Program-made: the position numbers and the translations under genes
In this document: one piece after another, positions 450 to 12,087 of the stretch
Layout: each line of letters opens with the position of its first letter
Position numbering within the stretch: position 1 is the stretch's first letter
The notes under the pieces: generated by a model
What the model was told of the DNA's origin: nothing
The model's database searches: none
Seen by the model: the letters and a program-made list of their open reading frames with translations, nothing else
Assembly (NCBI GenBank): GCA_937858455.1
Contig: CALLYN010000260.1
Coordinates: forward strand, 1 to 12,087
Reading direction: 5' to 3'
Origin: an uncultured Kouleothrix sp.
Lineage (GTDB): Bacteria > Chloroflexota > Chloroflexia > Chloroflexales > Roseiflexaceae
DNA length: 12,087 nt

Positions 450-941
450 TCAGGCCGCGCCTTCCCGATCGTGCAGCGCCGTCGCCAGCAGATCGATCTG
501 GCCAATATGATGTGTTGCGTGGAGCAGGTTGCGCAGGATGGCCTTCACGACACTGTGCGCCTCGCCGCGAATGTAGACCGTGCGGGCAAAGTCGTCGTCG
601 GTGAGCGCCTCGAGCGTGGCGAACAGGCGCTGCCAGCCGGCATCCCAGCGGGCCATGATCTGCTGCCGGGTGTCGCCGCCCTCGTGCACAAACTCGCGCG
701 GGCGCTGGCGATCGGCCTTCTCGCCATCGCTGGTCAGGAAATCAGTCCAGCGCGAGATGAAGTTGCCGCCGATGTGCTTGACCAGGATCGCAATGCTGTT
801 GGTGTGATCGTCGCCACCTTCTTTCAGCTGAGTGAAAAATGCCTCGTCGTCGACGCGGCCCAAGGCTGCCTCGGCCATGGCCTTCTGCTCCTGGTACTGG
901 GCAATCACCTCGGCCTTGAATTCCATCCACGCGCTGCTCAT
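450..941 (-). CDS. DinB-like / DUF1572 family protein
   Basis: A 163-residue protein of the DinB/YfiT-like four-helix bundle superfamily, closest in pattern to DUF1572. These are usually metal-binding proteins of unknown or thiol-transferase-like function; no substrate can be read from the sequence. Candidate metal ligands are His56 (in L-V-K-H-I-G-G-N) and His141, His144 and His145 (H-A-T-H-H-I-G-Q-I), the hallmark helix of the family. The start is chosen at the ATG at 941 because AGGAG sits 9 bases upstream. A longer reading frame to 1067 exists, but it would add a basic, family-foreign N-terminus and run into the palindrome at 1010-1102. The protein is complete by family length. It converges with hflX and follows another DinB-like gene on the same strand, about 300 bases away, so it probably has its own transcript. 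Confidence 0.85.
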   Translation of the reverse strand: MSSAWMEFKAEVIAQYQEQKAMAEAALGRVDDEAFFTQLKEGGDDHTNSIAILVKHIGGNFISRWTDFLTSDGEKADRQRPREFVHEGGDTRQQIMARWDAGWQRLFATLEALTDDDFARTVYIRGEAHSVVKAILRNLLHATHHIGQIDLLATALHDREGAA

Positions 942-1009
942 AGTCTCGTTCTCCTGTTGTCGGTAGCTCACAGAATGTACGCGGCGCTTCCCCTGCGGCC
1001 TTCGCGCTT

Positions 1010-1102
1010 CGGCAGAGCGGTACTTTTTCATGGATGGTGCTGAGATGTTGGCGCAAAGCGCCAACATCTCAGCACAAACGAAAGCGAAGTACCATGCTGC
1101 CG
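1010..1102. repeat. 93-bp imperfect palindrome with perfect 18-bp core stem
   Basis: The core is a perfect 18-bp inverted repeat (1037-1054 with 1058-1075) around an AAA loop. Outside it, after symmetric 11/11-base mismatched segments, comes a 7-bp stem (GGTACTT 1019-1025 with AAGTACC 1087-1093). After symmetric 3/3 mismatches comes a 6-bp stem (1010-1015 with 1097-1102). Equal loop lengths on both sides suggest a once-perfect palindrome that has decayed. It lies between two same-strand DinB-like genes. No T-run follows on either strand, so it is not a standard intrinsic terminator. It could be a MITE/REP-like element or a structured RNA. Confidence 0.7.
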
Positions 1103-1240: not shown

Positions 1241-1945
1241 TCAGGCTGGCTTGGCGCTCAGATCTTTGTCTTGCATCTCCCAGGCGTGATCGAGCGTGTG
1301 AAACACGGTGTGGCGGATGAGGTAGCGCAGCGGCCACGTGCGGGCCAGCTTGCCCTGGGCATGCAGCGCGCGAATGGCGCCGCAATAGGCGTCGCGGTGC
1401 GCGCTCAACCCCTCGGCGGTGAGCATTGCCTCGGCAGGCGTGAGCACGCCCAGCTTCCTCGCCCAGTCCTGCTCTGCGGCAAACGTATGGCGAACGATAT
1501 GGTCGCGATCGCGCCCTCCGCCGCGCGGGCCGCGCTGCATCTCGGCCGACACGCGCGCGCGCACAGCGTCGAAAAACGCCCAGCTCGCGCGCATCAGGCT
1601 CAGCTCGCGCTCGAGCGCCGCGCCCGGCACGGCCTGCTGGTCGATGCTCGAAAACCCGAACGAGATGCCCCAGAAGTCGGTGGAGCCAGTGCCGGGATAG
1701 CGCTCGGCGACCTCGACGCCGCTGATCGCCGCGAACTTGGCCAGCATCCCGGCCAGCTCGGCCACCGCCGCATAGCGCGGAACGTAGGATCGCAGGCGCT
1801 CAATCGCGTCCTGCTCGGTCGCCGCCCCGCGCGCGAGGCCGGGCCAATCCGGCGCCACCGCCACAACCTTCTTGCCTCTCGGCCCGATTTCCAGCATCAC
1901 CCGCATATGCTTCGTCACGGCGGCTCCAATCATCGTAGTAGGCAT
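1241..1945 (-). CDS. DinB-like protein with HicB-like N-terminal segment
   Basis: A protein of up to 234 residues. Residues ~80-234 look like a DinB-type helical bundle: Asp/Arg/His-rich R-D-H-I-V-R-H-T-F (His149, His153) and the C-terminal Y-L-I-R-H-T-V-F-H-T-L-D-H-A-W-E, whose His212, His216 and His220 are probable metal ligands. Residues ~14-65 (M-L-E-I-G...V-V-A-V-A-P-D-W-P-G-L-A-R-G...A-I-E-R-L-R) resemble the short alpha/beta fold of the HicB/UPF0150 type (predicted antitoxin-like), here fused rather than separate. The start is uncertain. ATG 1945 has no clear Shine-Dalgarno but lies just after a TATGAT, which fits a very short leader. The in-frame GTG at 1918 has GGAG five bases upstream and would remove nine residues. 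The function is unknown; stop TGA is at 1241-1243. Confidence 0.75.
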   Translation of the reverse strand: MPTTMIGAAVTKHMRVMLEIGPRGKKVVAVAPDWPGLARGAATEQDAIERLRSYVPRYAAVAELAGMLAKFAAISGVEVAERYPGTGSTDFWGISFGFSSIDQQAVPGAALERELSLMRASWAFFDAVRARVSAEMQRGPRGGGRDRDHIVRHTFAAEQDWARKLGVLTPAEAMLTAEGLSAHRDAYCGAIRALHAQGKLARTWPLRYLIRHTVFHTLDHAWEMQDKDLSAKPA

Positions 1946-2922: not shown

Positions 2923-3273
2923 ATGGAACAGCTCACACCATTCCGCGTTACACTTCCGGCTTCTCTGCCGGCGAGCGATCGTGAGACGCTGATCGCTTCG
3001 CTGCAAACCGTGGCTACGGTACAAATCGCCGAAAAAAAAGACCCCACGATCGACGCGATCTTTGCCGTTGTCAAGCAGGCCGGCGATGCCGCCGACGCAA
3101 TCATCAATATCGTGACACTGGCCGGCATGATCTATGGCTGGGCGCGCGCGTTGCACAAGCGCGGCATTATCCCCGATGTCACGCTGTTCCGACCCGATCA
3201 GCCCGAGCTTAATCTTTCGCGTGTTCAGAGCACGCAAGAGATCGAAGCCTGGCTGCGCCACATGACTCGCTAA
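2923..3273 (+). CDS. Small protein preceding CHAT-STAND gene (possibly EACC1-like)
   Basis: A 116-residue protein that I do not recognise with certainty. ATG 2923 is chosen because AAGGAG lies 7 bases upstream; the in-frame GTG at 2902 has no such site. The order of elements is a strand-like start (F-R-V-T-L), a helix with polar residues (18-32), then a hydrophobic, Gly/Ala-rich helical middle (about 43-76, ending Y-G-W-A-R-A-L-H-K-R). Next comes a beta-like P-D-V-T-L-F with a short L-N-L-S strand, and a final helix (E-I-E-A-W-L). This order resembles the small effector-associated constant component proteins (EACC1) described next to STAND NTPase conflict genes, but no diagnostic motif allows a firm assignment. 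A weakly membrane-associated helix is the alternative. It ends 17 bases before the CHAT gene, so the two are almost certainly co-transcribed and probably act together. Confidence 0.75.
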   Translation: MEQLTPFRVTLPASLPASDRETLIASLQTVATVQIAEKKDPTIDAIFAVVKQAGDAADAIINIVTLAGMIYGWARALHKRGIIPDVTLFRPDQPELNLSRVQSTQEIEAWLRHMTR

Positions 3274-3290
3274 TATCAAGCAGAGGCAGT

Positions 3291-6200
3291 ATGAGCACAC
3301 AGGCCAGCACCCGCCCTTTACGCATGCTCGCCCTGATCGCAGCGCCACTTGTGCAGCGCCGGGCCGAAGGCGAGGCTTTGCCGATCCAACCGTTGAATAC
3401 TGTGCGCGAGCTTGAAGGGATTATCGAGGCGTGCAAACTTGCCGACACGCCAGTCGCCATCGATATCCAGACCGAGATCGCCACCACCGAGGCGCTTGGC
3501 CGCGCCTTTGGCAGTGTGCAGGGCAGCTTCGACCTTGTACATTTCAGCGGCCACGGTGCCGGGAGCGCCGATGGCGCCGCGCTTGTGCTTGAAGACACTG
3601 CCGACCTTGGCGCCGCCCGCCTGGTCGATGCCGCCGAGCTTGGCGCTCTGCTTGGCCCGCATCCATGTCGCCTGGCGTTTCTCAGCGCCTGCCACTCGGA
3701 AGGTCTCGCCGCAGCTTTGATCGGGCGCGGCGTTGCGCATGTCGTCGCAATCAATGCCGACGACGCCATCCTCGACCTTGCGGCGCAAGCGCTCGCTCGC
3801 TGCTTCTACAGTGTACTGCTGAGCGGGCGCAGTGTGCAGGAGGCTTTTGATCGGGCAGTTCAGGCAGTGCGCTCGGACGACGCGCTGCGGAAGATCCTCG
3901 ATCCGCACACCCTGCAGCCGGTGAACCTTGCCGAGGCGCTCAAGTTCCGGCTGCTTCCAGACAATGATCAGGCTCACGCAGCGCCGCTCGCGCGCGATCT
4001 TCCTCAGGGCGAGGCTCGCTTTCGCCGGCCGCCGTGGAATGAGCGCACGAATCTTTCGAACGAGCCACGCGGCGCAATCTTTGTTGGGCGCCAGCGCGAA
4101 ATTCACCATATCACCGGGCTGTTGCGCAGCCACCGCTGCGTCAGTATTACCGGATTTGGCGGCATGGGCAAAACCGCCCTCGCCGAGGCTGCCGGCCGCT
4201 GGCAGCACGAGCGCGCGCGCTGGCCCGACGGCGTGGTGCTAGTGGAGCTGCGCGCTGTGCAGCGTGCCGCCGATGCGCGCGGTGCGATTGCTCGCGCCCT
4301 GACCGACCAGGCGCACATTGTAGCTGGCGACCAGGCGAAAATCGCCGAAAGTAACATCGCGCTGGCCCAGGCACTGCGCGATCTGCATATGCTACTCATC
4401 CTCGACGATGTCGACGCATTGATCGAGGCCGACCCCACGGGCCTCACGGATATACTTCGGCAGCTGCTAGGTACACGCGCCTTGCGCCTGCTGCTGACAA
4501 GCCGGCATTCGGTTACACAGCAGATTGTCCATCGCACCATTCTATTACCCCGGCTCGTGCCCGAAGAAGCCTTTGTTGCATTTCGCAGCTACGCGCCGCC
4601 GGATAGCTGGGGCAAGTTTACCGACGTTGATCGCGCAGCGCTGCCCGAGCTGCTGCAGCTGCTCGACGGCTACCCTTTCCCCATACGCCTGGCCGCCGCC
4701 TATCTGCAGCAGCAAGGCTGCGGCATCGCCGGCCTGGTTCAGAAGCTTCGCAAGCAGCCACACGTTCCAATGCAGTACCAGGGCGAGCAAGCTAATCGCG
4801 AGACCAGCCTGGTAGCAACGCTTAACCTGTCATATCAGGCTCTACCTTTGGCGGCACAGCAGCTGCTGCCAGTGCTAGCGTTGTTCCCAGCCGGGCTTAG
4901 CCGCACGGCGGCCCGCGCCATTCTTGGCACCGAAGGTGTTGACCTTCTAGAGACGTTGACACGCTATGCCCTGGCCGAGCGGCGTGAAGACCCTCTCGCA
5001 TTCGGAGCAGCGGCTGATGACCACACAGTGTATCAGCGCTTTATTCTACCCGAGCCGGCTCGCTGGTATGCCGAAGGGCACCAGCAGCCCGGATTGCTTG
5101 ACCAGTATGCCCCAGCTGCGCTGGAATATTTCCATCGCTTTATCGGCGATGTCGATACACAGATCAGCGGGCATGGCAAAGCCGCCGAAGGGCGCCAGCT
5201 ACTCGCGATCGAGCAGCCCAACTGGCGCCGCTTCCTCGACTGGGGGTACACAAATGAACAAACTGAACGCAGCTGCCTGAGCGCCCAGGCCACGGGCCGG
5301 CTTGGCAACTACTGGACGCTCACCGGTGAACAAAGATTGCCAGCGATATCGGAGCGCCTACAACACGCGCTGGCGGCAGCACGGCGCCTCCATGATCGCG
5401 CGGCCGAAGCGAATGTGCTCCAGGCGATCGGCGATGTCCAGCAGTTTCGAGATGATCGCGATGCCGCGCTGACCAGCTACACGCAGGCCCTCGCCCTCTA
5501 CCGCGAGATTGGCGATCGTCTCGGCGAAGCGAATGTGCTCCAGGCGATCGGCGATGTCCAGCAGTTTCGAGATGATCGCGATGCCGCGCTGACCAGCTAC
5601 ACGCAGGCCCTCGCCCTCTACCGCGAGATTGGCGCAAATCTCGGCGAAGCGAATGTGCTCCAGGCGATCGGCGATGTCCAGCAGTTTCGAGATGATCGCG
5701 ATGCCGCGCTGACCAGCTACACGCAGGCCCTCGCCCTCTACCGCGAGATTGGCGATCGTCTCGGCGAAGCGAATGTGCTCGCGGCACAAAGCCGCTTGCT
5801 GCTCGATAGCAATGTGCAAGCTTCCGAGCAGCTGCTCGATCAAGCGTTCCATATACGCCGTGAAATCGACGATGTGTATGGTGAAGGCGCCGATCTTGGC
5901 AACTACGGTATCGCCCTGCTGCAGCGCGGCAAGCATGCCGAGGCGCTTGGCTATCTCGAGCGCGCACGCGAGCTTTTTCGCGCGCGTGGGATCCACGAGC
6001 TGCTTGCTCAAATCGATCAGCTCATCGCGCAGGCCCGCCAGGGGCACGCCTCAGCCTCAACGCGCCCCGCCGACACAACCGAGCCAGCATCTGTCACGCT
6101 TCCCGACGGCCTCGCGGCCCGCCTCGTGGCCGCCGGCGCCACCGACGAAGCAAGCCTACGCCGCGCCCTCGACGCCGACGCGCAGCTTCGCGAAGAGTTC

Positions 6201-6929
6201 GAGGCATTCCTGGCAGCGCATCACGAGCAGCGCGCGCAAGCCAGCCTGAACAAACTGCTCCAGGCGTTCATCGCCGTCGGCAATCAGGATGCTCTAGCCG
6301 GCTTCTGGCAATCACTACCGCCGGAGCTAGAAGGCAGCTTTACTGCCTTTGTCGAAACACAGATCCGCCAGGCCGAGCAATCGGGCAACCGCGATCTGGC
6401 CGAAGGACTGCGCCAGCGCCTCGATGGATTAGATTGGCTGCGCTCGGGCCAAATGTCGCGCGTTGCGGAATTGCAGCGCGCTTTTGAACGCTACCAGCAG
6501 GCATACCAGGCCGCCGAACAATCCAACGATGTACAGCTGTGGCAGGCCGCCGCCGAGGCCGGCGCGGCCCTGCTCGCGCCAGAGTTCGCTGCGACCCCTG
6601 GCGTCGGGTGGGATGACCTGCGCGCGTACCTCGCCGACACTTATAACCGCCTGGGCAATGCCCACGGAGACGCCAACGACAAAGCGGCAGCCCTGGCAGC
6701 CTTTGAGCAAGCCATCGCGCTTCAGCCCGATGTTGCAATGTGGCGCCGCAACCGCGCAGGTACGCTGATCGACCTGGGCGAACTCAACATGGCCGAGGCC
6801 GAAATCGCCGCCGCACGCACGCTTGAGCCCGAGGCGCCGCGCCTGGACGAGCTTGATGCCGCGCTAACCCAGGCCCGTGCAATGCCTGCAAGCACCGAGC
6901 CACCGGGCAGCGCACCAGCAACCTCGTAA
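3291..6929 (+). CDS. CHAT protease - NB-ARC/STAND NTPase - TPR protein (NLR-like)
   Basis: A 1212-residue protein, probably a cytoplasmic signal-activated protease switch. Residues ~10-225 form a CHAT (caspase-like) domain with His88 in V-H-F-S-G-H-G and Cys134 in F-L-S-A-C-H-S, so the catalytic pair is intact. Residues ~260-560 are an NB-ARC-type STAND ATPase: Walker A G288-F-G-G-M-G-K-T295, Walker B L-L-I-L-D-D-V-D (368-375), sensor-like L-L-L-T-S-R (400-405) and a GLPL-equivalent G-Y-P-F-P-I (460-465). Residues ~690-910 are TPRs, including three 40-residue units identical but for two residues. Residues ~930-1050 are a helical segment (L-P-D-G-L-A-A-R-L, F-W-Q-S-L-P-P-E-L-E) of a kind common beside CHAT/TPR modules. 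About 1105-1197 is a final TPR-like pair. The start ATG has AGAGG four bases upstream. It shows frequent CTT/CTC leucine codons, unlike the CTG-dominated MFS gene. Role in phage defence or regulated death is inferred from architecture. Confidence 0.9.
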   Translation: MSTQASTRPLRMLALIAAPLVQRRAEGEALPIQPLNTVRELEGIIEACKLADTPVAIDIQTEIATTEALGRAFGSVQGSFDLVHFSGHGAGSADGAALVLEDTADLGAARLVDAAELGALLGPHPCRLAFLSACHSEGLAAALIGRGVAHVVAINADDAILDLAAQALARCFYSVLLSGRSVQEAFDRAVQAVRSDDALRKILDPHTLQPVNLAEALKFRLLPDNDQAHAAPLARDLPQGEARFRRPPWNERTNLSNEPRGAIFVGRQREIHHITGLLRSHRCVSITGFGGMGKTALAEAAGRWQHERARWPDGVVLVELRAVQRAADARGAIARALTDQAHIVAGDQAKIAESNIALAQALRDLHMLLILDDVDALIEADPTGLTDILRQLLGTRALRLLLTSRHSVTQQIVHRTILLPRLVPEEAFVAFRSYAPPDSWGKFTDVDRAALPELLQLLDGYPFPIRLAAAYLQQQGCGIAGLVQKLRKQPHVPMQYQGEQANRETSLVATLNLSYQALPLAAQQLLPVLALFPAGLSRTAARAILGTEGVDLLETLTRYALAERREDPLAFGAAADDHTVYQRFILPEPARWYAEGHQQPGLLDQYAPAALEYFHRFIGDVDTQISGHGKAAEGRQLLAIEQPNWRRFLDWGYTNEQTERSCLSAQATGRLGNYWTLTGEQRLPAISERLQHALAAARRLHDRAAEANVLQAIGDVQQFRDDRDAALTSYTQALALYREIGDRLGEANVLQAIGDVQQFRDDRDAALTSYTQALALYREIGANLGEANVLQAIGDVQQFRDDRDAALTSYTQALALYREIGDRLGEANVLAAQSRLLLDSNVQASEQLLDQAFHIRREIDDVYGEGADLGNYGIALLQRGKHAEALGYLERARELFRARGIHELLAQIDQLIAQARQGHASASTRPADTTEPASVTLPDGLAARLVAAGATDEASLRRALDADAQLREEFEAFLAAHHEQRAQASLNKLLQAFIAVGNQDALAGFWQSLPPELEGSFTAFVETQIRQAEQSGNRDLAEGLRQRLDGLDWLRSGQMSRVAELQRAFERYQQAYQAAEQSNDVQLWQAAAEAGAALLAPEFAATPGVGWDDLRAYLADTYNRLGNAHGDANDKAAALAAFEQAIALQPDVAMWRRNRAGTLIDLGELNMAEAEIAAARTLEPEAPRLDELDAALTQARAMPASTEPPGSAPATS
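5405..5780 (+). repeat. 120-bp tandem repeats encoding TPR units
   Basis: Three full copies and the start of a fourth follow a strict 120-bp period inside the CHAT-STAND gene. Each encodes one 40-residue TPR unit (A-N-V-L-Q-A-I-G-D-V-Q-Q-F ... A-L-Y-R-E-I-G). Copies are identical even at synonymous positions, except for the GATCG versus CAAAT change near 5635-5639. That pattern means recent duplication or ongoing gene conversion rather than old, selected repeats. Confidence 0.97.
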
Positions 6930-7001: not shown

Positions 7002-7232
7002 GCGCACCCGCCGAGCGACATCCCCCGCGCGGCGACTTGCATTCCCCGCGCCACGACTTGCACTCCATGCCCGCCGAGCGACACTCCCCGCGCGGCGACT
7101 TGCATTCCCCGCGCCACGACTAGCACTCCATGCCCGCCGAGCGACATCCCCCGCCCGGCGACTTGCATTCCCCGCGCGGCGACTTGCACTCCATGCCCGC
7201 CGAGCGACATCCCCCGCGCAATAACTAGCATT
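7002..7232. repeat. Tandem array B: 11 in-register 21-bp units
   Basis: Eleven units of the same three types as array A, in the order C A B C A B C A A C and the same diverged terminal unit (7212-7232, identical to 2526-2546). The C-A-B triplet order is cleaner here than in array A. Array B begins 72 bases after the CHAT gene stop codon. Confidence 0.95.
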
Positions 7233-7237
7233 CTTGT

Positions 7238-7276
7238 TGTGATGCCCTGCCCGGCGAAGCCGGGCAGGGCATCACA
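7238..7276. repeat. 18-bp-stem hairpin with GAA loop, copy B
   Basis: Identical in every base to 2552-2590: 7238-7255 pairs with 7259-7276 around GAA. It is the strongest hairpin downstream of the CHAT gene and might mark its transcript end, although no T-run follows. Confidence 0.85.
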
Positions 7277-7349
7277 CAAAGAAATTCGGGAGCGGCTTCG
7301 CCGCCCGCGAACCCCCGCAATACAGCACGTGTTCAGCCCAAGGAAGAAA
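7277..7349. repeat. Conserved tail of the array element, copy B
   Basis: Matches 2591-2663 with five substitutions and no indel. The small hairpin here is GCGGC-TTC-GCCGC, fully paired; copy A has a G-T pair at the same place. Confidence 0.8.
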
Positions 7350-7386
7350 TTCGCAGGCGGCGATGCCGCCACCAAACCCCCGGCAA
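7346..7386. repeat. Diverged second copy of the tail hairpin motif
   Basis: GAAATTCG, then a GGCGGC-GAT-GCCGCC hairpin (7356-7370), then AACCCCC and CAA, repeat the layout of 7281-7320 with different loop and flanking bases. Array A has no equivalent at this position. The spacing and the preserved pairing suggest a small structured repeat of its own. Confidence 0.55.
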
Positions 7387-7495: not shown

Positions 7496-8803
7496 ATGTC
7501 TACTCAACCACATCCCGCGCCCGCGGCGACCTCGCCCGCCACGATGCGCCGGAACTTCCGCCTTGGCGTTGCCAACGGCGTGCTCTTTACGCTTGGCGAG
7601 GCGATGCTGAGCGCGAACGTGGTGCTGGCGCTGCTGGTGCGCGAGCTTGGCGGCTCGCTGGTGCTGGTGGGGCTGCTGCCGGCGCTGCAGACCGGCGGCT
7701 ACCTGCTGCCGCAGCTGCTGGTCGGCGGGCGCATTCAGGGCATGGCCGCTAAGCTGCCGCTGTACCGGCGCGCGGCCGTGGCGCGTGTGGTGGCTTACCT
7801 GGTGCTGCTGGCGGCCATCTTCGGCGCCGACATGTTTTCGCCCAGCGTCAGCCTGTGGCTGATTGTCGCCAGCTTCAGCATCTTCAACCTGGGCGGCGGC
7901 ACCTCGACGCTGGCGTTTCAAGACGTTGTGGCGAAAGTGATACCACCCCGGCAGCGCGGCAGCTTCTTCGGCACGCGCCAGCTGCTCGGCGGCCTGCTCA
8001 CCTTTCTGATCGTCGGGCCGCTGGCGCGCTGGCTGCTGAACGACAACGCCCCGCTCGGCTTTCCGAATAACTACGGCGTGCTGGCGACGCTCGGCCTGCT
8101 GGGGATCGGCAGCGGGCTGCTGTCGTTCGCGCTGATCGACGAGCCGGTGCAGGCCCAGCCGGGCGCGCGGCTGCGGGTGATCGAGGGGCTGCGGCGCGCG
8201 CCGGCGATTATTCGCGAGCACGCCAACTACCGCTGGTTTATTATCTCGCGCATCCTGACGCGCGTAGGCCAGATCGCCGAGCCGTTCTATATGGTCTACG
8301 CCACCGAGGCGCTGGGGCTGCCGACGAGCGCCGCCGGGCTGTTTCTGGCGGTGCGCGCCATCACCGGCGCGCTCTCGAACTTGCTGTGGGGCCGCGTGAG
8401 CGACCGCAGCGGCAACCGCAGGCTGGTGGTGCTGAGCGGAATGTTGCTGGTGCTGCCGCCGGTGCTCGCGCTGGCCGGGCCGATCGTAGCCACGCGGCTG
8501 GGGATGGGCAGCGGCGGGCTTATGCTGGCGATCGGGCTGGTGTTTCTGGCGAGCGGCGCGGCCAACGACGGCAGCAACATGGCCGCAAACACCTACCTGC
8601 TCGAGATCGCGCCCGACGACGAGCGCCCGACGTATATGGGGCTGGCGAATACGCTGCTGGGCGCGGCGACGTTTGTGCCGGTGCTGGGCGGCTGGCTGGT
8701 CGAGCGCGCCGGCTTCTTCGCCACCTTCACGGTGGGGCTGGTATTCGCGCTGCTGGGGCTGCTGGCGTCGTCGCGGCTGGGCCAGGGCGACGCAGAGCGC
8801 TAG
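7496..8803 (+). CDS. MFS transporter
   Basis: A 435-residue inner-membrane transporter of the major facilitator superfamily, with roughly 12 hydrophobic segments split in two halves by a polar loop (about 215-245). Visible family features are a motif-A-like loop G-G-R-I-Q-G-M between segments 2 and 3 (77-83) and a clear second-half motif A, W-G-R-V-S-D-R-S-G-N-R-R (298-309). A conserved-looking segment A-P-D-D-E-R-P-T-Y-M-G-L-A-N (372-385) follows. The substrate is not predictable; sugar or drug efflux-type MFS are both possible. The N-terminus (1-17) is Pro/Ala-rich and cytoplasmic; ATG 7496 is supported by the TATAAT six bases before it. Leucine is coded mostly by CTG. It converges with potC, leaving only 21 bases between the stop codons and just a weak hairpin (CCTGG/CCAGG, 8808-8819) for termination. 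Confidence 0.9.
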   Translation: MSTQPHPAPAATSPATMRRNFRLGVANGVLFTLGEAMLSANVVLALLVRELGGSLVLVGLLPALQTGGYLLPQLLVGGRIQGMAAKLPLYRRAAVARVVAYLVLLAAIFGADMFSPSVSLWLIVASFSIFNLGGGTSTLAFQDVVAKVIPPRQRGSFFGTRQLLGGLLTFLIVGPLARWLLNDNAPLGFPNNYGVLATLGLLGIGSGLLSFALIDEPVQAQPGARLRVIEGLRRAPAIIREHANYRWFIISRILTRVGQIAEPFYMVYATEALGLPTSAAGLFLAVRAITGALSNLLWGRVSDRSGNRRLVVLSGMLLVLPPVLALAGPIVATRLGMGSGGLMLAIGLVFLASGAANDGSNMAANTYLLEIAPDDERPTYMGLANTLLGAATFVPVLGGWLVERAGFFATFTVGLVFALLGLLASSRLGQGDAER

Positions 8804-8824
8804 CCCACCTGGTGCCAGGCCGCG

Positions 8825-9643
8825 CTACTTGCCGCCGCCGGCGACCTCGGTGGTATCCTGGGTGAGCCGGTTGGCCAGCAGGATCGGCAGAAACGTCGCG
8901 GCGATCACAAACACCGCCACCACGTTTGTCACCGGGCGGTTGCGCGGGCGCACCAGCTGGCTGAGAATCCAGATCGGCAGCGTTTCTTGCTGGCCGGCGG
9001 TAAACGTGGTGACGATCACCTCGTCGAACGAGAGTGCGAACGCCAGCATGCCGCCGGCAAGCAGCGCGGTAGCAATGTTTGGCAACACCACGTAGCGAAA
9101 TGTCTGAAAGCTGGTGGCGCCCAGGTCCATCGACGCCTCGATCTGCGAGGCCGAAGTGCGGCGGAAGCGCGCCAGCACATTGTTGTACACCACCACTACG
9201 CAGAAGGTCGCATGGCCGAGCACGATCGTCCAGAAGCTGAACGGCAGCGCGGCCAGGCTCATGGCCGAGCGCAGCGCGATGCCGGTGACAATGCCGGGCA
9301 GCGCCAGCGGCAGCAGCAGCAGAAACGAGATCGCCTCGCGGCCGAAGAACGCGCTGCGGTACACCGCCATCGCGGCCAGCGTGCCGAGTACAAGCGCCAC
9401 CGTGGTGGAGACGGCCGCCACGCGCAGCGAGAGGCTGATCGCCTGCCACACGTCGTCGCGCGCCCAGGCCACGCCAAACCAGCGCAGCGTCAGGCCCGGC
9501 GGCGGGAAGGTGAACGTCGCGTCTTCGGTGCTGAAGGCGTACAGAATAATGATCAGGAATGGCACGTACAGAAACGCCAGCACGCAGGCAGTGGCGAGCT
9601 TGAGCAGCAGCGGCGCGCGGGGCTGGGTTGCCTGTGCACTCAC
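8825..9643 (-). CDS. potC: ABC transporter permease, spermidine/putrescine type (PotC-like)
   Basis: A 272-residue inner-membrane permease subunit of a polyamine-type ABC importer. About six transmembrane helices can be seen (for example 15-37, 72-95, 106-125, 137-158, 191-210, 240-257). The cytoplasmic EAA loop that contacts the ATPase is at 169-190 (E-A-S-M-D-L-G-A-T...F-R-Y-V-V-L-P). The late F-D-E-V-I-V-T-T-F stretch is typical of PotC/PotI. The length matches the family. The start is GTG 9643, with GGAG seven bases upstream. It begins 12 bases after the potB stop codon, so the two are translated from one message. The actual substrate depends on the binding protein (PotD/F-like), which is not in the window; other putrescine/thiamine/iron-type members share this fold. 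Confidence 0.9.
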
Positions 9644-9655
9644 GCGTAATCTCCT

Positions 9656-10606
9656 CTATAGCGCATCGAACGCGCCAAGCCTGCGCGCGCCGATCAGGTA
9701 CAGCGCCATGATCACCATCGGCACAACCGTGAACGCCGCGGCCAGCGGGATGTTGCCGGCGGTGCCCTGCTGCTGCTGCACGGCCTGGCCGATGAATAGG
9801 CTCGAGTTGCCAAACGTGCCGGGGATGATGAAGTCGCCGAGCGTGAGCGAGAAGGTGAAGATCGAGCCGGCGACCACGCCGGGGAACGCCAGCGGCAAAA
9901 TCACATTGCGGAAGGTCGCGGCCGGCCGCGCCCCCAGGTCGCTCGAGGCCTCGACGAGCGAGCGCGGCACGCGCTCAAGCGCCGCGACGATCGGCAGGAT
10001 CATGTACGGCAGCCAGACGTACAGAAACGCCAGGAACATGCCGATCGCAGAGACCGACAGCGAAGGCCCGCCGATCGCGGGGATGCTCAGCAGCCCATCG
10101 ATCAGCCCGCCAAGCCCGAGACGCGCGAAGAACCAGGTGAGGATGCCTTCTTTGGCGAGGATGAGCTTCCAGGCGTAGATCCGCACCAGGTAGCTCGACC
10201 ACAGCGGCATTGTCACGGCCAGGTACAGCAGCGCCCTGGCGCGCGGGGTCGCGTAGCGCGCCATGTAGAATGCCAGCGGGAAGGCCAGCAGCGCCGCAGC
10301 CAGCGTCACAAGCGCGGCCATGCTGGCGGTGCGCGCGGCGATATCGAGATTCGCGCGCGTCAGCAGGTCGGCGTAGGTGGCAAGCGTGAAACGACGCACC
10401 ACCTGGCCGGTGAAGCCGTCGAGGTGAAAGAAGCTCTGGGTCAGCAGCGCGAACAGCGACCCGAGATACACCAGGCCAAGCCACAGCAGCGGCGGGGCGA
10501 GCAGCAGCGCCAGCGCGAGGCGCGGCCGGCGGTAGAGGTAGGTTGCCATGCGGCGGCCGGGCGCCGCGCCGCCCGCTTGTGATGGTTGCGCTACGCTTTC
10601 TGCCAC
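9656..10606 (-). CDS. potB: ABC transporter permease, spermidine/putrescine type (PotB-like)
   Basis: A 316-residue inner-membrane permease, the partner of the following PotC-like protein. After a polar N-terminus (1-28) come about six membrane helices (30-56, 95-117, 124-145, 184-208, 238-258, 287-306). The EAA loop is at 219-239 (E-A-S-S-D-L-G-A-R-P...F-R-N-V-I-L-P). The L-W-S-S-Y-L-V-R-I-Y-A-W and G-D-F-I-I-P stretches are characteristic of PotB/PotH. The start is GTG 10606 with GGAG nine bases upstream. It begins 23 bases after the stop of the Uma2 gene, tight enough for co-transcription with it. Stop TAG at 9656-9658 directly abuts the Shine-Dalgarno of potC. Confidence 0.9.
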   Translation of the reverse strand: MAESVAQPSQAGGAAPGRRMATYLYRRPRLALALLLAPPLLWLGLVYLGSLFALLTQSFFHLDGFTGQVVRRFTLATYADLLTRANLDIAARTASMAALVTLAAALLAFPLAFYMARYATPRARALLYLAVTMPLWSSYLVRIYAWKLILAKEGILTWFFARLGLGGLIDGLLSIPAIGGPSLSVSAIGMFLAFLYVWLPYMILPIVAALERVPRSLVEASSDLGARPAATFRNVILPLAFPGVVAGSIFTFSLTLGDFIIPGTFGNSSLFIGQAVQQQQGTAGNIPLAAAFTVVPMVIMALYLIGARRLGAFDAL

Positions 10607-10629
10607 GGCACGTCGCTCCTTCGAGTATG

Positions 10630-11376
10630 CTAGCCGTCCTTCCGGCCCAGCAGCGCGCGCAGGCGCGCAACCTCGGCCTCGGCGGCACTGGCGCGGGCGG
10701 ATTGTTCGGCGGCGCGAGCCTCGGCGGCAAGGCGCGCCTCGGTTTCGGCCAGCAGCCGGATCTCGGCCTCGTGGCGTGCGGCCTCGGCGGCGCGGCGCGC
10801 CAGTACTTCTTCATCGGAGATCGGCAGCCGCTCGCCGGTGGCGGCGTTATACAGGCGCAGCGCCTGATCCTCGGCGCGCAGCTCGAGGCCCAGCACTGCG
10901 CAGCGCAGCGGAAAGGTATCGATCGGCGCGTACGCGCCATTCGCCAGGCGGTAGCCTTGCAAGCGCGGCGCCAAGTAATCGCCGTATGGGTCGAACAAAA
11001 AGTACTCCTGCACGCCAAGGCGGGCATACAGCGCAGGCTTGATATCGCGGTCGGCGGCGCTGGTCTTCTTCGACGTGATCTCGATCACCACGGCGGGCAC
11101 GCGCCCATCCTCGGCCCACACCTTGTAGGTGCGGCGGCGGCGCTGCTCGGCGCCAAGGATCACAAACACATCCGGCGCGACAACCGCGCGCGGGTTGCCT
11201 TCTTCAAAGTACACAAACAGGTTGCCGGCAACATACGCCTGGACATTCGCCAGAAACCACTTGAGCGCAAAGATCAGGTCGGTCATCAAGTCGCGGTGCA
11301 GGTCGGTTTCGCCGATCGGCTTGCCATCGCTTTCGGGGTAGTGCAGGTTGCGGGCGGGCGCTGGTATGCTGCTCAT
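10630..11376 (-). CDS. Uma2 family (DUF820) putative restriction endonuclease with coiled-coil tail
   Basis: A 248-residue protein. Residues ~20-170 form a Uma2-type PD-(D/E)XK nuclease fold: P-D-V at 68-70 (Asp69), V-V-I-E-I-T-S at 96-102 (Glu99) and D-I-K-P-A-L-Y at 111-117 (Lys113), then G-V-Q-E-Y-F-L-F-D. The active-site set looks complete. Residues ~185-243 are Ala/Glu/Arg-rich heptad-like sequence, a probable coiled coil seen in many longer Uma2 members. The family is abundant in Chloroflexota and cyanobacteria, and its biological role is not established. The start ATG 11376 has AAAGG eight bases upstream; a TTG six bases earlier would be too close to it. It sits between potA and potB, 78 bases after the former and 23 before the latter, with its own TATAAT upstream. 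Confidence 0.88.
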   Translation of the reverse strand: MSSIPAPARNLHYPESDGKPIGETDLHRDLMTDLIFALKWFLANVQAYVAGNLFVYFEEGNPRAVVAPDVFVILGAEQRRRRTYKVWAEDGRVPAVVIEITSKKTSAADRDIKPALYARLGVQEYFLFDPYGDYLAPRLQGYRLANGAYAPIDTFPLRCAVLGLELRAEDQALRLYNAATGERLPISDEEVLARRAAEAARHEAEIRLLAETEARLAAEARAAEQSARASAAEAEVARLRALLGRKDG

Positions 11377-11427
11377 CGGCAATGCCTTTACACGCTACAA
11401 TTTCGCCTGGCAGAGGCAGGTAGCGCC

Positions 11428-11433
11428 ATTATA
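11428..11433 (-). promoter_or_regulatory. TATAAT -10 box upstream of the Uma2 gene
   Basis: A perfect TATAAT reads on the - strand in the 78-base gap between potA and Uma2. It would give a ~45-base leader to the ATG at 11376. TGAGCA (- strand, 11457-11452) is a poor -35 candidate at an 18-base spacing, overlapping the potA stop. The spacer holds the 12-bp palindrome CGCGCCGGCGCG (11437-11448), a possible operator or end-of-potA structure. Confidence 0.5.
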
Positions 11434-11454
11434 CATCGCGCCGGCGCGGCATGC

Positions 11455-12087
11455 TCAGCCAATGCGCTGGGTGTGCTGGCGCGGCCACAGCAGCCGAACC
11501 GGCCGGCCGTAGGCGGCGCGCGCGTCGACGGCGCCGCCGTCGAGGTTTTGCGCAACCACCGTCAGCTCGCCGCCGCCGTCAAGCTCCACCTGGTAGCGCG
11601 TGTGCATCCCCAGGTACACGACATCGCGGATGTGCCCGGCGGCGGCGAACATATCGCCCGGCACCGGCGCGCCCGGCTCGGCCATGCGGATCTTCTCGGG
11701 GCGGATGGCGAAGGCGTGCTCATCGCCGGTGATCGCCGCCGCCGCCGCGCCGCGCACAATGTTCGAGATGCCGACGAAGCCGGCCACAAACGCGCTGGCG
11801 GGGTGCTCGTACACCTCCGAGGGCGCGCCGAGCTGCTCGATCGTGCCGTGGTTAAACACGGCGATCCGATCGCTCATCGTCAGCGCCTCCTCCTGGTCGT
11901 GCGTGACATACACAAACGTAATGCCGACCTGCTGCTGGATCGCCTTCAGCTCGATCTGCATCTGCTGGCGCAGCTTAAGATCCAGCGCGCCGAGCGGCTC
12001 GTCGAGCAGCAGCACGCGCGGCTGGTTCACCAGCGCGCGCGCCAGCGCCACGCGCTGGCGCTGGCCGCCCGAGAGCTGGGCGGGCCG
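11455..12087 (-). CDS. potA: ABC transporter ATP-binding protein, PotA-like (5' end outside window)
   Basis: The C-terminal 210 residues of the ATPase subunit of the same importer. The frame is open through the right edge of the window, so the N-terminal part with Walker A is not seen. Visible in order are the ABC signature L-S-G-G-Q-R-Q-R at the very edge, Walker [13 protein letters not shown], the switch-histidine loop V-T-H-D-Q-E-E-A-L, then [19 protein letters not shown] leading to F-V-G-x-S-N. A C-terminal TOBE-type regulatory region follows (I-R-P-E-K-I-R and beta strands). These are the marks of the PotA/MalK/FbpC (CUT1/polyamine) group. The two Pot-type permeases downstream make PotA the best name. 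The protein works at the inner face of the membrane and drives uptake by ATP hydrolysis. Confidence 0.9.

Follow-up and report, generated by a model that had tools for sequence, protein, structure and literature searches.

In an uncultured Kouleothrix sp. of the Chloroflexota, a small gene is a real partner of the CHAT-STAND-TPR gene that follows it, being the constant neighbour of genes of this type in four genera. Together they probably form a divergent variant of a predicted bacterial system for defence or self-destruction. They are located in the window analysed here, the 12,087 nt at positions 1-12,087 of contig CALLYN010000260.1 (assembly GCA_937858455.1).

Organization of the two-gene unit

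The small partner gene (2923-3273, plus strand; 116 aa) is recognized from its reading frame (2902/2923-3273 in the ORF listing), its relatives and its structural model, and the ATG at 2923 is preceded, 7 nt upstream, by AGGAG (2911-2915). The large gene (3291-6929, plus strand; 1212 aa), defined by ORF, Pfam and alignment, begins with the ATG at 3291, 17 nt after the small-gene stop. It codes for a CHAT domain (residues 1-255; 3291-4055), an NB-ARC/NACHT-like STAND ATPase situated between effector and repeat sensor (residues 260-480; 4068-4730), three nearly identical 40-residue TPR units delimited by repeat and unit comparison (residues 705-824; 5403-5762), and a second TPR stretch near the C terminus, detected by Pfam and alignment (residues 1115-1190; 6633-6860). 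Scans for promoters and terminators gave nothing scoring above shuffles, and Rfam and tRNA scans gave no match.

In the Pfam scan of the full-length large protein, the AAA_22, NB-ARC, nSTAND1 and TPR families exceed their cut-offs and CHAT is unlisted, whereas the CHAT profile reaches 49 bits (cut-off 24) for the isolated residues 1-255 and 49.2 bits when the genome is searched. Such members may therefore escape surveys of long repeat proteins. His88, within a GHG motif (codon 3552-3554), and Cys134, within SACHS (codon 3690-3692), are invariant in all six aligned members; they coincide with the GHG and ACC of the SAVED-CHAT protein 8tl0, and the CHAT fold is matched. By profile, fold and His/Cys dyad the large protein is thus a CHAT protein, and protease activity is predicted. 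Lys294 of the Walker A motif GFGGMGKT (4152-4175) and Asp372/Asp373 of Walker B (4392-4409) are invariant in the same six proteins. The original prediction had described an NLR-like effector-switch-sensor layout with an intact His88/Cys134 pair, a complete Walker A/B STAND ATPase and a small gene 17 bases upstream, and it is borne out by the alignments, the Pfam matches and the agreement of ORFs and start codons; its catalytic pair also passed the comparison with a known CHAT protease. The solved proteins closest to the STAND-TPR part are TPR scaffolds and the transcription regulator AfsR, with Roq1 also among the solved relatives; the AfsR match spans the ATPase and the TPR part (E 3.7e-15). 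In PHROGs, the large protein has three weak matches of unknown function. The organism's own genome has eight CHAT matches over the cut-off on seven contigs (L001-L008), the window's included, and the remaining ones look like different CHAT proteins.

The repeat sensor is the variable part of the protein. The N-terminal 660 residues align well among the six members, and the number of units and the tails vary. For example, the three units of the window are 93-97% identical in protein and 96-99% in DNA, and the L020 relative has two units, identical in protein and 99% in DNA. The L026 relative has five, 47-93% identical in an ungapped protein comparison in which a one-residue length change in one unit lowers the figures. 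One unit is found in L023, at least two precede the contig end in L019, and L022 is cut off. The C-terminal extension with the second TPR stretch does not occur in the same form in the five aligned relatives. Diversification of sensors by repeat recombination has been described for fungal NLRs, and near-identical units with changing copy number suggest that it also takes place in these bacteria.

The small protein has been modelled from 51 sequences (pLDDT 78.6, pTM 0.68) as one compact alpha/beta domain with the order strand-helix-strand-strand-long helix-strand-strand-helix. Its most conserved residues lie at the C-terminal end, where L96 and W110 are invariant in 51/51 members and an RPxQPxLxL motif, followed by E and WL, is nearly invariant. 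The best 19-residue Kyte-Doolittle mean is 1.43 in the window protein and at least 1.6 in 32 of the 51 members, and the hydrophobic stretch is modelled as a strand and a helix within the compact fold. Across the six complete pairs, mean pairwise identity (15 comparisons) is 47.5% for the small protein, against 63.3% for the CHAT domain, 62.9% for the ATPase and 59.3% for the region that follows, so the small protein evolves faster than its protease partner. A fold search with the model gave no informative match, and neither of the two small proteins scanned had a match in PHROGs.

Conservation and distribution of the pair

Sequence searching with the small protein retrieved eight proteins at 66-100% identity, itself among them, and profile searching retrieved 59, whose names include Roseiflexus, Chloroflexus, other Chloroflexi MAGs and two Cyanobacteria (Merismopedia and Coleofasciculaceae; P0050, P0051). 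Within the class, the small gene occurs at 12 places in 11 of 158 genomes (E<=0.01). Six of these places directly precede a CHAT-STAND-TPR gene (G000, G004, G006, G011, G015 and G034), giving six complete pairs. Another (G017) runs into a contig end within the first 45 residues of the CHAT protein, of which 35 aa are 88.6% identical to that of L026, and one (G040) is cut by the contig end; at the other four the unit has decayed or been disrupted (G045, G047, G054 and the second G004 copy). In the reverse direction, the CHAT profile of this type finds six genes (E<=1e-20) in the same 158 genomes, all six behind the small gene and none without it. Conservation of the small gene beside the CHAT gene in relatives, the test set in the original prediction, is therefore supported. 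Relatives keep the pair at identities of 24-32% for the small and 50-57% for the large protein, which is more than chance. In the five relatives the candidate CHAT starts overlap or touch the stop of the small gene, the true starts being uncertain, and translation of the two genes is on these grounds likely to be coupled. A phylum-wide draw (10 of 400 genomes at E<=1e-4) added no genome to those already known. Plasmids gave no match to the small protein; matches to the large protein there cover its ATPase part only, in other regulators as far as annotated. The candidate small-gene locus L018 was dropped, because it lies on the strand of another gene's long reading frame.

Turnover and surroundings of the locus

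Restriction-modification genes stand at three of the four disrupted copies. In G045, the small gene is intact; behind it come two frames, one XamI-like (restriction) and one for an Eco57I-type methylase, and the CHAT-gene sequence that follows them starts at residue 638. The small gene can thus persist without the protease part, at least temporarily. In G047, XamI and methylase frames come after a remnant of the small gene that contains stops, and behind them is a weak trace of the region following the ATPase (33% over 81 aa, E 4.6e-5). The extra small-gene copy of G004 is truncated; the same restriction-modification pair follows it, and then a complete small-CHAT unit. These restriction and methylase frames lie at L024:6600-9853, L071:5993-9091 and L020:3435-5764; the XamI frame of L024, at just 142 aa, is perhaps interrupted too. 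In G054, the 3' end of the small gene is disrupted, and the 16 kb examined gave no CHAT match. The sharing of one site by restriction-modification genes and the two-gene unit in three genomes would suit a locus of the defence type.

In the window, tandem arrays of 21/63 nt and an imperfect 53-nt palindrome flank the unit on both sides (1976-2632 and 7003-7352). The two flanks form direct repeats with 96% identity over 157 nt, through which the unit may be lost by recombination. Copies of the palindromic part are scattered through the genome (84 matches, with 40 of 339 candidates scored); on other contigs, identity reaches at most 96% over short pieces, and 78-93% over most, so that its position around the unit may be incidental. 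Upstream lie a DUF1572/DinB-like gene (450-1067, minus strand; 164.8 bits) and a 234-aa frame without Pfam match (1241-1945, minus strand). Behind the unit (7496-12051) there are an MFS transporter gene (77.1 bits), two ABC permease genes and an ABC ATPase piece on the opposite strand; a gene for a Uma2-family putative restriction endonuclease (10630-11382, minus strand; 79.2 bits, cut-off 27) is placed between the ABC transporter genes.

Relation to EACC1 and other known systems

The closest parallel in layout is provided by the EACC1-caspase systems, which are enriched in multicellular bacteria (PMC7159879). In these systems, the 5' gene encodes a small protein with one conserved transmembrane helix, rich in small residues, between alpha/beta ends, and the 3' gene an N-terminal caspase-superfamily domain followed by one of as many as 50 alternative domains at the C terminus, among them STAND NTPases (PMC7159879). 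The Kouleothrix unit likewise has a small 5' gene, whose product may bear, between its alpha/beta ends, a hydrophobic helix containing small residues, directly before a 3' gene for an N-terminal caspase-superfamily protease with STAND and repeat parts, one of the many options of EACC1. The hydrophobic stretch, however, is transmembrane-like by hydropathy in 32/51 members only, the six 3' genes seen all share one STAND-TPR tail type, differing in repeat number and tails, and the word CHAT does not occur in the text of the EACC1 paper (PMC7159879).

At the sequence level, none of the small-family members scanned reaches the EACC1 (PF19953) cut-off of 23.7 bits, which corresponds to E 4.9e-5, and the window protein has no EACC1 match in Pfam. 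EACC1 is the Pfam family matched by most members, at sub-threshold scores in 8/51 (best E 9.2e-4), with alignments over profile positions 6-99 of 107 in P0043 and 6-103 in P0047; beyond the 51, P0063 and P0023 score 17.3 and 15.3 bits, also below threshold. Of four consensus sequences, one matches EACC1 (15.4 bits), one HTH_32 (17.4 bits) and two nothing. Controls score comparably: three of the four reversed consensus sequences match other families at 12.7-16.6 bits, two shuffles match none, and NCBIfam gives chance-looking families in up to five of the same 51 members, with E down to 0.0038. The EACC1 signal is thus only slightly above background, and a direct assignment of the small protein to EACC1 was rejected. 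Clear EACC1 proteins occur in six of 301 genomes of the phylum (E<=0.001; three over the cut-off), none of them in G000, and at two places in one of three named plasmid records searched. Their small number and their divergence precluded a useful profile. As tblastn queries they retrieved only themselves, a tblastn search with L048 had no hits, and hhalign against single EACC1 proteins of Embleya was uninformative. The original label "EACC1-like" accordingly fits gene order and topology, and the sequence does not establish it: the small protein resembles EACC1 in layout and is a candidate member of that family.

Links with other CHAT and STAND proteins have also been considered. The CHAT fold and His/Cys dyad are shared with the TPR-CHAT of Craspase and with SAVED-CHAT of type III CRISPR systems, SAVED-CHAT being the best structural match; however, no CRISPR element (Rfam), gRAMP or SAVED domain (Pfam) was found here, and activation would instead run through the STAND module. 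Fungal NLRs with an N-terminal CHAT domain and a TPR sensor, some of them beside gasdermins, have been described (PMC10197012), and the present unit is like them in its CHAT-NB-ARC-TPR layout with internally conserved repeats. The neighbour here is modelled as a small alpha/beta protein rather than a gasdermin, for which the window proteins scanned with Pfam gave no match. The effector-STAND-repeat sensor order is also that of bacterial antiviral STAND proteins such as Avs and bNACHT (PMC10907252), from which the unit differs by its protease effector and separate small partner; in PADLOC 2023 neither Avs nor bNACHT was matched, and the hits were limited to a generic TPR model and a weak one to PDC-M40B. 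Among the open papers listed, no study of this pair was found by title or abstract.

Possible functions of the pair

The preferred reading, to which a probability of about 0.5 is assigned, is a two-gene NLR-like protease conflict system working like the predicted EACC1-caspase systems. From the observed parts, their conservation and their pairing, we infer each functional step on the basis of sequence. The small alpha/beta protein would bind the CHAT domain, or the junction between CHAT and ATPase, and gate the protease. Binding of a ligand by the TPR array would lead to nucleotide exchange and oligomerization of the STAND module, bringing the CHAT domains together and activating them to cut a cell protein or the complex itself. 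The outcome would be growth arrest or death of a cell that is infected or in contact with non-self. This reading draws on the pairing, the intact dyad and ATPase motifs, the TPR variation against a conserved N-terminal part, the EACC1 layout and the restriction-modification genes at the site; counted against it are the sub-threshold EACC1 homology, the generic PADLOC result, the non-defence role of AfsR, one of the closest solved proteins, and the small gene standing alone in G045.

The small protein could alternatively be the protease substrate, with the cut fragment acting as effector or signal. CHAT substrates are often encoded beside the protease, as for Csx30, the neighbour cut by TPR-CHAT (PMC9729208), and the faster evolution of the small protein (47.5% vs 63.3%) agrees with this idea; yet the model is a single compact domain, with its conserved residues C-terminal and without an evident disordered linker carrying a conserved site, and the idea appears rather unlikely. 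The large protein could also be an AfsR-like STAND regulator or signalling protein with no role in defence, its CHAT part processing a regulator; this would account for the AfsR match over ATPase and TPR part and for the transporter and housekeeping-like genes of the window. However, the Pfam scan shows no DNA-binding or SARP domain, and the patchy occurrence (11/158 genomes), decayed copies, restriction-modification genes at the same site and homogenized repeats suit conflict better, which makes such a role unlikely. Least probable of all is a dedicated inhibitor whose loss releases the protease, as in toxin-antitoxin pairs: the upstream position, the likely coupled translation, the intact small gene of G045 without CHAT and ATPase part and the lack of any CHAT gene of this type without the small gene would be expected of it, but any required partner gives the same pattern, which bears no sign specific to inhibition.

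A bolder version of the preferred conflict-system reading is tentative and, on balance, doubtful. The small family would be an independently evolved, non-EACC1 gatekeeper of a bacterial caspase-NLR, and the homogenized, copy-variable TPR arrays a diversifying sensor of non-self or kin, as has been proposed for fungal NLRs; together they would form a two-component receptor and caspase clamp of filamentous-type Chloroflexota.

Biological significance

The unit is now defined as two genes, in which a small family without a model of its own is tied to a CHAT protease. The question of what gates a bacterial caspase-NLR, and what it cuts, is thereby reduced to two proteins. As judged from its predicted domains, a bacterium related to Roseiflexus and Chloroflexus carries an immune-receptor-like gene that joins a caspase-like protease to an ATP switch and to a sensor made of repeats.
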